From: Dechloromonas agitata is5
GTDB taxonomy: Bacteria > Pseudomonadota > Gammaproteobacteria > Burkholderiales > Rhodocyclaceae
Assembly (NCBI RefSeq): GCF_000519045.1
Contig: NZ_KI912532.1
Location: 2,356,001 to 2,420,000 of the forward strand
Length of the DNA: 64,000 nt
Reading direction: 5' to 3'
Shown piece by piece: positions 11,374 to 14,363 of this stretch. Under the pieces are notes generated by a model. The model saw only the letters and a list, made by a program, of their open reading frames with translations, searched no databases and was not told the origin of the DNA. The position numbers were made by a program, and so were the translations under genes. Position 1 is the stretch's first letter. The number at the start of each line of letters is the position of its first letter.

Positions 11374-11389
11374 ATCAAGACCCGTGCCA
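11374..11389 (-). promoter_or_regulatory. Sigma-54 promoter of the leftward operon
   Basis: On the minus strand the sequence TGGCACGGGTCTTGAT matches the -24/-12 consensus TGGCAC-N5-TTGCW, with a perfect -24 half and TTG at -12; only the C of the -12 GC is changed. The predicted start lies near 11363, about 37 nt before the ATG of the first gene. It shares TGGCACGGnTCTTGnT with a second site at 14245-14260. The adjacent gene encodes a sigma-54 activator. Confidence 0.7.
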
Positions 11390-11489
11390 GCCGGCGTGGT
11401 GGGGATGGGTTTTGCAAGCCACTGATTCCGTGGGTGAAATTTTCAAGCACCCTGGCTGCAGTCCGCCACCTCGTGATAAATTGCTGACA

Positions 11490-11521
11490 TTGGCAGAATA
11501 ACTGGCAGCATTTGGCAGTCA
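11490..11521. promoter_or_regulatory. TGGCAG repeats, probable activator-binding site (UAS)
   Basis: Three copies of TGGCAG start at 11491, 11503 and 11513, the last extending to TGGCAGTCA. They lie about 100-130 bp upstream of the leftward sigma-54 promoter, the normal distance for an enhancer, and just before the activator's own start codon. The same 9-mer TGGCAGTCA occurs at 14355-14363 near the second sigma-54 promoter. Confidence 0.6.
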
Positions 11522-11541
11522 GGATGCTGCGAGGAGACAAA

Positions 11542-12840
11542 ATGCGTGAGCCAGCCAAGCCCCCCCGTGAACTGGTGTCCTTTCTCGAAGGGCTTTCCGA
11601 ACCGCACATCCTGTGCGACCGCAATTACCGCATCCTGGCGGCCAATGAGGCTTATCGGGCGAAGTGGGTTGGCCAGCCCGAGGTCGTCGGGCGTGCCTGC
11701 TACGAGGTGTCGCACCGCTACAGCGTGCCGTGCGACCAGGCCGGCGAATCCTGCCCACTGCAGAACAGCCTGCGCTCCGGCCAGCGCGAGCGGGTGGTGC
11801 ATCTGCATCACACCCACCTCGGCGAGCAACTGGAGAACATCGAACTCTCGCCGATCCGGGACGATACCGGCGAAATCGCCTACTTCATCGAAAAGCTGGA
11901 ACCCTTGCCAGTGCAGCGCAGCGAGGAGCACGCACAAGGCCTGATCGGACGCTCGCCGGCCTTCGTCGCGATGATGGAACTGGTGGCGCGGGTCGCCCCG
12001 TCGGACGCGGCGGTGCTGCTGCAGGGTGAATCCGGCACGGGCAAGGAACTGGTCGCCAACGCCATCCACCACATGAGCCGGCGAGCGGCCAAGCCCTTCG
12101 TCGCCGTCGATTGCTCGGGGCTGGCCGAAACCCTCTTCGAAAGCGAACTGTTCGGCCATGAGCGGGGCGCCTTCACCGGCGCCGTGGCGCGCAAGACCGG
12201 CCTGGTCGAGGCGGCGGCCGGCGGCACGCTGTTCATCGACGAAGTGGGCGACATCCCGCTGTCGATCCAGGTCAAGCTGCTGCGCCTGCTCGAAACCGGC
12301 ACCTTCCGCCGGGTCGGTTCAACCGAGCTGCGGCGGGCGGATATCCGCGTCGTCTCGGCTACCCATCGCCCGCTGGCCGACATGGTGTGCGACGGCAGCT
12401 TCCGCCAGGATCTCTTTTACCGCCTCAACATCTTTCCGATCCATCTGCCGGCCCTGCGCGAACGGCGTGACGACATCGTGCCGCTCGCCGAGGCCCTGCT
12501 GGTGCGGGTGGCCGGTGGTCGCCAGCTGCGCCTCAGCCGGGCCGCCATCGGCTGGCTGCGCGATTACGCATTTCCGGGCAATGTCCGCGAAATGCGCAAC
12601 CTGCTCGAGCGGGCCTGCCTGCTGTGTGACGGCGATGAAATCGATCTCCGCCACCTGCCGGACACCCAGTCTTCCGCCCTGCCGGGTGGCAGCGGGAAAG
12701 GTGGCGGGCAGACCGCACTGACCGACCGGCAGCTGCAGGAGATGGCGCGCAGCTTCTCGGGCAGCCGCAAGGAACTGGCGCGCCGCCTGGGCCTCTCCGA
12801 GCGCACCCTGTACCGGCGGCTCAAGGAAGTGCCGGGCTGA
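11542..12840 (+). CDS. Sigma-54 dependent transcriptional activator with cysteine-bearing PAS domain
   Basis: The 432-residue protein has three parts. A PAS-like sensor (about residues 12-120) carries Cys25, Cys53, Cys64 and Cys71 ([20 protein letters not shown]), a pattern suggesting metal, Fe-S or thiol redox sensing. The AAA+ domain has Walker A GESGTGKE (162-169), the sigma-54 contact loop GAFTGA (209-214) and Walker [10 protein letters not shown] Fis-type helix-turn-helix ends the protein ([20 protein letters not shown]). GAGGAG at 11531-11536 fixes the ATG. No partner histidine kinase is adjacent and there is no receiver domain, so signal sensing is probably direct. Likely targets are the two flanking sigma-54 promoters. 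Confidence 0.93.
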
Positions 12841-12846
12841 GGCGCC

Positions 12847-14043
12847 CTAAGGCCTTGTCCAGCGGGCGATCAGCGCCGTGAGGGCGACGGCGGCCAGCGG
12901 CAGCAGCAGGGCCTGCTGCGGATTGTCGAGCTGCTCCGGTGCGATGACCAGCAGCAGGCCCAGGCCGAACATCATCAGGCCGGAAAGCAGCTTGAGCAGG
13001 CGCCCCTCCCGCTCGCTGAGCTTGCGGCTGCCCAGGGTGCGGACGAAGGCGAGCACGATCAGCAGCAGCGGCAGGATGTAGATCAGGTTGTAGAGCAGCA
13101 GGTAGGCGTAGTGCTGTGCCACATCCTGCTCGCGCAAGGTGAGCAGGCGGGTGAAGACCATCGGAAAACCGGCGGTGCACAGCAACTCATAAAAATTGGC
13201 GACGCTGGCCAGCAGCAGCGTGGTGGCGAGCATGGTCGGCAGGTGCCCGCTCTGCACCAGGCGCCGGCCGCGCTGGAAGAGGTCGGCCCGGCGCTCGGCG
13301 CTGATCGAGAGTGAGGGGCCGTGCGGGAAGGCGAAATAGTCCTTCAGGTTGAGGGCGCCGATGAGCAGGGCCAGGGCACCGGCTGCCGCCGTGATCCAGG
13401 CGAGGTTGCCGACGACCAGGAAGACATTGAGCCAGGCTGCCATGAAGGCAAAATACAGTACGCCGGAGCAGAGCACGAAGATGCCGCCGATCAGCAGCAT
13501 GCGGCTGCGCTGGTGCTGGTGGGTGAGCAGGGAAAGCAGGAAGAGCAGCACGAAAAAGGCGCAGGGATTGAAGGCATCGAGCCCGGCGAGCAGGATGGTG
13601 AGTACCGGGAGTGACAGGTCCGCCAGCCGGATTTCGCCCAGTAGCGGGAGGTTCAGGGGCGTTTCCACGGTCGGCGGGATGGCCGCCGTGCCCTGGCGGC
13701 AGGCTTCGAGACGGGCGAGCAACTCCGCCTGCTGCACTGCTGCATCGGGCCAGCCGACTTCCATGTGTCCGCAATAGAACAGGGTTGGCACGGCCAGTGC
13801 CGTCTCGCCATGGGCTAGCGCCATGTCCTGGAAGCGTTGCAGGTTGGTCGGCGACTGGGTGATTTCGTAGTCGTGAAGGTGCAGCCATGGGTGTTCGGCC
13901 GCCATTTGCCGTAGTTCCGGCAGGGCCTTCAGGCAGTGCGGACAACGCAGCGACCAGAAGACATGCAGATCGACGGCCGTTTCGGCAATGGCCGTCAGCG
14001 TGGTCAGGGCGAGCAGCAAGGCGAGCAGCAAGCGGCGAGTCAT
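12847..14043 (-). CDS. Thioredoxin-like (CPHC) / DsbD-like membrane fusion protein
   Basis: The 398-residue product has a signal segment (about 1-20), then a periplasmic thioredoxin-fold domain with active site CPHC (Cys34, Cys37; FWSLRCPHCLKALPELR) and cis-Pro-like AVPTLFYCGH. About eight transmembrane helices follow, from roughly residue 150 (LDAFNPCAFFVLLFLLSLL, a DsbD/CcdA-like N-P-C element), ending at ARWTRP. It probably moves reducing equivalents across the inner membrane to a periplasmic thiol partner. Leftward, convergent with the activator gene by 6 bp. A sigma-54 site lies 200 bp upstream and a TACAAT -10 candidate lies nearer. Confidence 0.8.
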   Translation of the reverse strand: MTRRLLLALLLALTTLTAIAETAVDLHVFWSLRCPHCLKALPELRQMAAEHPWLHLHDYEITQSPTNLQRFQDMALAHGETALAVPTLFYCGHMEVGWPDAAVQQAELLARLEACRQGTAAIPPTVETPLNLPLLGEIRLADLSLPVLTILLAGLDAFNPCAFFVLLFLLSLLTHQHQRSRMLLIGGIFVLCSGVLYFAFMAAWLNVFLVVGNLAWITAAAGALALLIGALNLKDYFAFPHGPSLSISAERRADLFQRGRRLVQSGHLPTMLATTLLLASVANFYELLCTAGFPMVFTRLLTLREQDVAQHYAYLLLYNLIYILPLLLIVLAFVRTLGSRKLSEREGRLLKLLSGLMMFGLGLLLVIAPEQLDNPQQALLLPLAAVALTALIARWTRP

Positions 14044-14113
14044 GGCGTGATTGGGCAGAAAACGGCCTGGATTTCATTGTAGTCCGCCGGTCGTCGCGGC
14101 AAGCTCGGTGGAC

Positions 14114-14140
14114 AAAAAAATGGCGGGGACGAGCCCCGCC
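14114..14140 (-). terminator. Intrinsic terminator in the leader of the CPHC gene
   Basis: Read leftward, GGCGGGG (14140-14134) and CCCCGCC (14128-14122) form a 7-bp GC stem with a 5-nt loop, followed by A and seven T (14120-14114). It lies between the sigma-54 promoter at 14245-14260 and the start codon at 14043, so it would end a transcript of about 120 nt or act as an attenuator. Confidence 0.75.
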
Positions 14141-14244
14141 AAAAGTCACGCAAGTAAGGATGCCCGGCCTGAATCATGCGCCTCCGGCAGCCCGTGTCCG
14201 GGTACTGGATGGCAGGCTCCAGGCCTGTGTTGCGGCTACTGTCT

Positions 14245-14260
14245 AACAAGATCCGTGCCA
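14245..14260 (-). promoter_or_regulatory. Sigma-54 promoter upstream of the CPHC gene
   Basis: The minus strand reads TGGCACGGATCTTGTT, nearly identical to the site at 11374-11389 (differences at one spacer base and the base after TTG). The -24 half is a perfect TGGCAC. The predicted start is near 14234. Confidence 0.65.
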
Positions 14261-14327
14261 TGCCCTTGCTCAATCGACTCGGGTGTTAATAATCAGCTAC
14301 TTATGTTTTCGAATGATCTGATATTCA

Positions 14328-14363
14328 CTGCCAATTGGCAGCTTTGTTGTCATCTGGCAGTCA
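14328..14363. promoter_or_regulatory. Palindrome plus TGGCAGTCA, probable activator-binding site
   Basis: CTGCCAATTGGCAG at 14328-14341 is a perfect 14-bp palindrome. A further TGGCAGTCA lies at 14355-14363. Together they mirror the TGGCAG repeats at 11490-11521 and are 70-110 bp upstream of the sigma-54 element at 14245-14260. Confidence 0.6.

Follow-up and report, generated by a model that had tools for sequence, protein, structure and literature searches.

Which regulator and which signal govern the two transcription units around a sigma-54-type activator gene in Dechloromonas agitata is5? The locus lies in a stretch of 64,000 nucleotides (contig NZ_KI912532.1, positions 2,356,001 to 2,420,000), called the window below, and coordinates without a locus name refer to it. 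An earlier note, made from the DNA sequence alone, had proposed that one activator, encoded between two -24/-12 promoters, controls both a long leftward operon and the gene of a protein with a CPHC motif. Comparison with related genomes suggests that the locus is probably a self-contained FisR-type regulon, in which both promoters would be opened on reactive sulfane sulfur.

Promoters and operators at the activator locus

As shown in Table 1, both -24/-12 elements described in the earlier note are present on the minus strand (TGGCACGGGTCTTGAT and TGGCACGGATCTTGTT, promoters 1 and 2). TGGCAG boxes start 107-129 and 73-100 bases before the -24 elements of promoters 1 and 2, respectively, which bears out the clusters said to lie 70-130 bp upstream. 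The palindrome CTGCCAATTGGCAG near promoter 2 and the 9-mer TGGCAGTCA common to both clusters (11513-11521 and 14355-14363) were likewise recovered. The GAFTGA-bearing AAA+ activator placed between the promoters is also there, and its product matched Sigma54_activat (E 8e-67), PAS_4 at residues 15-115 and HTH_8, with GAFTGA read by eye. There was one rpoN match in the window genome. The boxes of array 1 end 23 bp before the start codon of the activator gene, so autoregulation is possible.

Zero-mismatch matches to TGGCACNNNNCTTG in the window were the two promoters only. With one mismatch allowed, 12 matches were found against 5.0 expected, and 0/100 shuffles reached 12; since such matches are this common, -24/-12 similarity alone is weak evidence. 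The pattern CTGCCANTTGGCAG, with up to 3 mismatches, showed no enrichment in the window (35 matches where 26 were expected; 9/100 shuffles reached 35), and its exact form occurred at one place in the 3.63 Mb window genome. The rarity resides in the combination of box, spacing and -24/-12 element, not in the promoter pattern alone. The combined pattern CTGCCAN{84,114}TGGCACNNNNNTTG, searched across all of the complete window genome (3,627,226 bp), gave 2 matches, exactly promoters 1 and 2, and the reversed control gave 0. Over 60 genomes of the genus it gave 60 hits (35 genomes), compared with 10 in the reversed control, and 26/60 hits fell inside the FisR loci read here, judged by coordinates. 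TGGCAG pairs numbered 41 in the window genome and 27 in the reversed control; when 30 of these 41 loci were scanned for further regulon members, only the FisR sites paired a zero-mismatch promoter with at least two boxes.

The conservation sample consisted of 60 Azonexus/Dechloromonas genomes, 54 of which had some match to the PAS query. The ortholog set comprised 19 loci from 18 genomes with at least 73% identity over this query, and up to 17 kb was read around each. The related genomes do not count as independent samples: L043 is very similar to L063, and a single genome supplied both L054 and L058. A divergent operon of Rieske and/or cydA type was found at 16/19 loci. Conservation in relatives that keep the genes had been set beforehand as the refutation test for the proposal, and promoter and boxes were kept in 16/16 of these loci; the -24/-12 element lay 134-177 bp before the activator match, with zero mismatches in 15 loci and one in L047. 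Neither divergent operon genes nor a divergent promoter were found in L045 and L056, and L051 ends too soon to judge. At least one TGGCAG box was located just upstream of the activator in 19/19 loci, and at least two, in either direction, in 18/19. The divergent promoter with boxes was also found in L061, L063, L068 and the Zoogloea loci L069, L071, L072, L073 and L077, while in Zoogloea L070 a promoter was found only elsewhere in its locus.

Forty linked promoters were picked by hand from the scan list (at most one mismatch and at least two boxes), omitting the duplicate contigs L062, L064, L066, L067 and L075, matches that were themselves box arrays, and repeated matches within or next to octaheme reductase coding sequence. 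The 40 promoters carried 149 boxes, whereas 500 shuffles preserving base composition only averaged 4.3 and never exceeded 11; this count is partly built in, because at least two boxes was a selection criterion, while the base at -12 is not. Nearly all boxes (143/149) start 51-150 bp upstream of the linked promoters, and same-direction neighbours are mostly 10-12 bp apart (37/69 CTGCCA-CTGCCA steps), which fits binding on one helix face. The consensus was TGGCACGNNNCTTGATAAG, with A at -12 in 38/40 promoters and T in 2/40. Both window promoters have TGGCAC at -24, and neither has TTGC at -12, which we take to be the sigma-54 consensus; they have TTGA and TTGT instead. The lack of a C at -12 had been named as the main weakness of the proposal. 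The C is indeed absent, but the A in 38 of 40 linked promoters looks like a regulon-wide signature rather than a flaw. Ordinary promoters with C at this position probably exist in the window genome, since TTGC-type sites (TGGCACNNNNNTTGC) numbered 22 against 5 in the control. Among these 22 sites only L220 had two boxes, at other spacings, near a hypA-like gene (by eye).

Gene content of the locus in relatives

No cytochrome b/c1 gene was recognised in the leftward operon of the window (Table 1). The product of its last gene presumably resembles DsrE, a likeness seen by eye and without Pfam support. In relatives, cydA and/or cydB were found in the divergent operon of 13/19 genus loci, 12 of them with a Rieske gene (L054 ends inside cydA), and cydAB were divergent from the activator in Zoogloea L069, L071 and L077. 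The reference genes are genuine bd oxidase genes: L044 cydA matched PF01654 and L044 cydB passed TIGR00203. No bd oxidase was found in the window genome, which gave 0 matches to PF01654, while 10/14 control genomes were positive. Loss of cydAB in the lineage of the window, L040 and L061 would be the simpler history, because the activator has cydAB next to it in three Zoogloea loci as well. The counterpart of the Spy-like gene sits between cydA and cydB in L043, L048 and L063. The Rieske gene of L041 (7343-7637, with the activator oriented +) matched in two pieces, residues 1-26 and 127-206, and is apparently internally deleted or broken.

An octaheme-cytochrome gene like that of L043 lies downstream of the activator in 12/19 genus loci and in L063. 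The reference protein from L043 passed TIGR04315, the tetrathionate reductase family (644 against 375 bits), and matched 1sp3. Among these 13 loci, 6 have a linked promoter within 330 bp carrying at least three boxes. The window genome has an octaheme paralogue elsewhere (L211, G000:C1:945326-946915; 57-58%), for which one in-match TGA was reported and residues 39-550 align stop-free; no FisR-type promoter was found in its fetched 4.6-kb locus.

Table 1. Coordinates and properties of the features discussed (window positions).
Feature	Position	Strand	Properties
Promoter 1, -24/-12 TGGCACGGGTCTTGAT	11374..11389	-	upstream of leftward operon; kept in 16/16 same-genus loci with a divergent operon
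Promoter 2, -24/-12 TGGCACGGATCTTGTT	14245..14260	-	counterparts in relatives L040 and L061
Candidate operator (upstream activating sequence) array 1	11491..11518	+	TGGCAG at 11491, 11503, 11513; 12- and 10-bp steps
Candidate operator (upstream activating sequence) array 2	14328..14360	.	CTGCCAATTGGCAG dyad 14328-14341 and TGGCAG 14355-14360
FisR-like sigma-54 activator	11542..12840	+	PAS with C25/C53/C64/C71, AAA+ with GAFTGA, HTH_8
Intrinsic terminator	14112..14141	-	8-bp stem, T7 tail; between promoter 2 and CPHC gene
Probable membrane protein, N-terminal CPHC motif (by eye)	12847..14043	-	candidate promoter 2 target via read-through
Operon gene 1, Spy/LTXXQ-like, small, apparently exported	10868..11326	-	weak, E 0.03, below cut-off
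Operon gene 2, Rieske iron-sulfur protein	10237..10857	-	TIGR01416 above cut-off
Operon gene 3, Nitro_FeMo-Co (NifX/NifB-like) domain protein	9851..10219	-	
Operon gene 4, DUF2141 protein	9424..9867	-	
Operon gene 5, ArsR-family repressor	9057..9419	-	
Operon gene 6, DUF6858 protein	8640..9029	-	E 5e-56
Operon gene 7, small, apparently exported	8199..8615	-	no Pfam support

Promoter 2 and the CPHC gene

Three distinct genomes, those of the window, L040 and L061, keep promoter 2 with its boxes, which suggests that it is probably used, and a second box-bearing promoter stands beside the activator in several relatives too. Promoter 2 is separated from the CPHC gene by a strong terminator, a hairpin with a T7 tail (14141-14121), and this hairpin also stands before the CPHC gene in L040, L043, L061 and L063. 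Control of the CPHC gene is less secure, because this terminator intervenes and expression would need read-through; it is the weaker half of the two-unit model. The proposal that one activator controls both units was supported by conservation in relatives, more securely for promoter 1 than for the CPHC half. The description of the CPHC gene as 'DsbD-like' had no Pfam support, the best relevant match being DSBA-like at E 0.25. Just past the second operator, dps-like and katG-like genes (by eye) were located at 14692-17490 on the plus strand.

A serious contender, though one that we do not favour, is that promoter 1 alone works and that promoter 2 is left over from a lost octaheme/cytochrome b operon, with its transcript ending about 120 nucleotides on at the terminator of that operon and the CPHC gene not controlled. 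In L043 the hairpin follows a cytochrome b561-type gene (PF01292) adjoining the octaheme gene, in an octaheme reductase-cytochrome b-CPHC block, and the octaheme promoter has the same boxes. The most likely history would be deletion of the octaheme-cytochrome b part between its promoter and its terminator, and the sequence from promoter 2 to the hairpin is not conserved among the window, L040 and L061. However, the survival of promoter 2 with its boxes in these same three genomes suggests use. Furthermore, the gap between promoter 2 and the terminator gave no convincing match to a remnant of the reductase or of cytochrome b, and a scan of 14000-14700 found no sigma-70 promoter.

Sensing, known systems and significance

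The four-cysteine PAS domain of the earlier note was confirmed, with C25, C53, C64 and C71 in the PAS region. The alignment of 34 proteins covered the window protein, those of the 19 genus loci, three FisR2 paralogues and proteins of 11 more loci, among them Accumulibacter, Zoogloea and C. metallidurans; C53, C64 and C71 were present in 34/34 and C25 in 29/34. The triad has the spacing C-x10-C-x6-C, and C53 and C64 coincide with the published cross-linking positions of FisR; we take the third FisR cysteine to be at position 71. The activator thus appears FisR-like and probably senses reactive sulfur. The recognition segment SERTLYRR was common to the aligned orthologues other than L074, which has SERTLYRK, and L058, which is truncated. 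The activator scored below the cut-offs of the named activators in NCBIfam among the 25 of 26 matches listed. A NifA/nitrogenase identity was rejected (the nifA model covered the AAA+ part only, 319 bits against a cut-off of 529), as was a NorR identity (286 against 476 bits).

The window genome also encodes a FisR2 paralogue (L059, G000:C1:229974-231296) with 58% identity over residues 9-428, the cysteine triad and the recognition segment SPRTLYRK. Its gene adjoins ccoG (TIGR02745, above cut-off). No box-plus-promoter unit was found in the 18-kb L059 locus, and FisR2 was rejected as a second regulator of the sites at promoters 1 and 2. On a single contig, L058, the same cyd/Rieske region is bordered on one side by a partial FisR orthologue and on the other by a FisR2 paralogue.

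Cupriavidus FisR is reported to form a Cys53-Cys64 tetrasulfide (PMC9495516); three conserved cysteines (PMC9774590) and ATP hydrolysis under sulfide stress (PMC8148161) are reported for FisR as well. Like the window protein, to which it was matched by published residue numbers, FisR of C. pinatubonensis JMP134 is a sigma-54 activator with conserved sensing cysteines (PMC9495516, PMC9774590, PMC11211675). Its reported targets are sulfide-oxidising genes, whereas the window has the Rieske/nifX-like/DUF operon and its relatives have bd oxidase or octaheme reductase genes. According to PMC7315123, A. baumannii FisR, also a divergent sigma-54 activator adjoining an operon, which is sulfide-induced there, activates PDO1-SQR-TauE; sulfide raises cydAB transcription, and bd oxidase is described as refractory to sulfide.

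The homologue in C. metallidurans (L177; 52% identity, recognition segment SERTLYRR) sits between two promoters of the same -24/-12 form bearing TGGCAG arrays. The first, with 4 boxes, precedes genes for a lactamase-fold protein (closest NCBIfam model, Blh sulfur transferase/dioxygenase, 389 bits with a cut-off of 625; ETHE1 E 4e-29) and a pyridine-nucleotide oxidoreductase (human sulfide:quinone oxidoreductase, SQOR, E 7e-93; match to an SQR model below cut-off), and the second, with 5 boxes, precedes a TauE exporter. The C. metallidurans locus and the window share this two-sided layout, with the same operator before the persulfide-dioxygenase-like and SQR-like genes. In Zoogloea L072 a box-bearing promoter is followed by a Rieske gene and then a lactamase-fold gene, which the hydroxyacylglutathione hydrolase and Blh models fit equally. 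Farther away, an activator of Pseudoalteromonas xiamenensis (L234) has a C-x10-C-x6-C PAS domain and a divergent promoter TGGCAT-N5-TTGTAATG (one mismatch), and is divergent from an annotated cydP-cydB-cydX bd oxidase operon; unlike in the window, one TGGCAG box was found, and the activator is 46% identical.

The same regulon architecture could answer another signal, namely a thiol-reactive or redox cue such as nitric oxide, disulfide stress, oxygen or metal. This we consider unlikely: the bd oxidase, Rieske and CPHC proteins would fit redox or respiratory stress as well, the FisR2 paralogue with the same triad adjoins ccoG, and the katG-like and dps-like genes are nearby, but the cysteine spacing and the C53/C64 positions are those of FisR, and the same operator precedes the dioxygenase-like/SQR-like and TauE genes in Cupriavidus and the octaheme tetrathionate reductase-family genes in relatives.

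The sequence elements and how they are conserved, together with the neighbouring genes, the cysteines and the operator shared with Cupriavidus, lead us to infer binding, sigma-54 dependence, inducer and read-through as follows. The PAS-AAA+-HTH activator would bind TGGCAG half-sites grouped in arrays roughly 50-150 bp before the two TGGCACGNNNCTTGATAAG promoters, in many cases spaced by one turn of the helix. Reactive sulfane sulfur would cross-link Cys53 and Cys64 of the PAS domain and thereby turn on the ATPase, which would let sigma-54 polymerase open both promoters. Promoter 1 would drive the spy-like, Rieske, nifX-like, DUF2141, arsR, DUF6858 and small exported protein genes, and promoter 2 a short transcript that meets the terminator, probably with partial read-through into the CPHC gene.

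Several observations weigh against the sulfane-sulfur regulon. A terminator separates promoter 2 from the gene it is supposed to drive, and the interval up to this terminator is not conserved among the three genomes. C at -12 was found in 0/40 linked promoters. Genus-wide, 34/60 hits of the combined pattern fell outside the FisR loci read here, and some of them recur within the same coding sequence. Among the 13 octaheme loci, L056 has a promoter but lacks boxes close to it, and 6 show neither element within 330 bp. FisR2 paralogues carry the triad too, so the triad alone does not tell what is regulated. A. baumannii FisR is described as lacking regulatory cysteines and yet mediating the sulfide response (PMC7315123), so the triad is not the sole way of sensing. 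In Pseudoalteromonas L235 the region upstream of the homologue showed no such promoter. The window genome showed no clear persulfide dioxygenase (best match 35% identity over half the query, E 1e-11; SQR was outside that search), and neither persulfide dioxygenase (PDO) nor SQR was found among nine locus proteins scanned; the lack of both at the locus lowers the case for an identical regulon, not for the same type of sensor.

It is quite improbable that the promoter 2 transcript (about 14233-14112) is a sigma-54-dependent small RNA; it has a promoter, about 120 nucleotides and a strong terminator, and folds at -54 kcal/mol (z -2.2, 6/200 shuffles as good), but the fold includes the terminator and the transcript body is not conserved among the three relatives. 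That the -24/-12 sites and boxes are chance resemblances without function is barely credible, for although one-mismatch -24/-12 matches are common (12 against 5 expected), position, spacing and boxes are conserved across genera and the two genome-wide matches both lie beside the activator.

In relatives, promoters of this kind stand before a bd oxidase/Rieske operon and before a gene of the octaheme tetrathionate reductase family, so the ancestral role of the FisR-type regulon was likely to switch the respiratory chain to sulfide-tolerant, sulfur-handling components. The system looks like a new branch of the known sulfur-sensing system, because relatives employ a switch of the same kind for a respiratory enzyme that tolerates sulfide and for a cytochrome resembling tetrathionate reductase. 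More tentatively, and short of a view we would favour, a FisR-type sensor in Rhodocyclales and its Pseudoalteromonas cousin may rewire respiration instead of merely disposing of sulfide, by turning on the sulfide-tolerant bd oxidase, an orphan Rieske protein and octaheme tetrathionate reductase through a separate class of sigma-54 promoters with A at -12; the window lineage would have retained the switch for its remaining genes after losing the oxidase and the linked reductase. Among the papers listed, judged by title and the opening of the abstract, none dealt with a FisR-controlled cyd or octaheme operon, and a search on Azonexus/Dechloromonas with sulfide, sigma-54 or persulfide gave no paper.

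The TGGCAG arrays and the promoter form offer a testable operator for FisR-type regulators, and the conserved A at -12 raises a direct question on sigma-54 promoter control. The locus also gives a signal hypothesis for uncharacterised families, namely DUF6858, DUF2141 and a Rieske protein outside a bc1 operon. The likely targets of FisR-type regulators would extend from sulfide oxidation to the respiratory chain, with a candidate direct regulatory link from reactive sulfur to the sulfide-tolerant bd oxidase.

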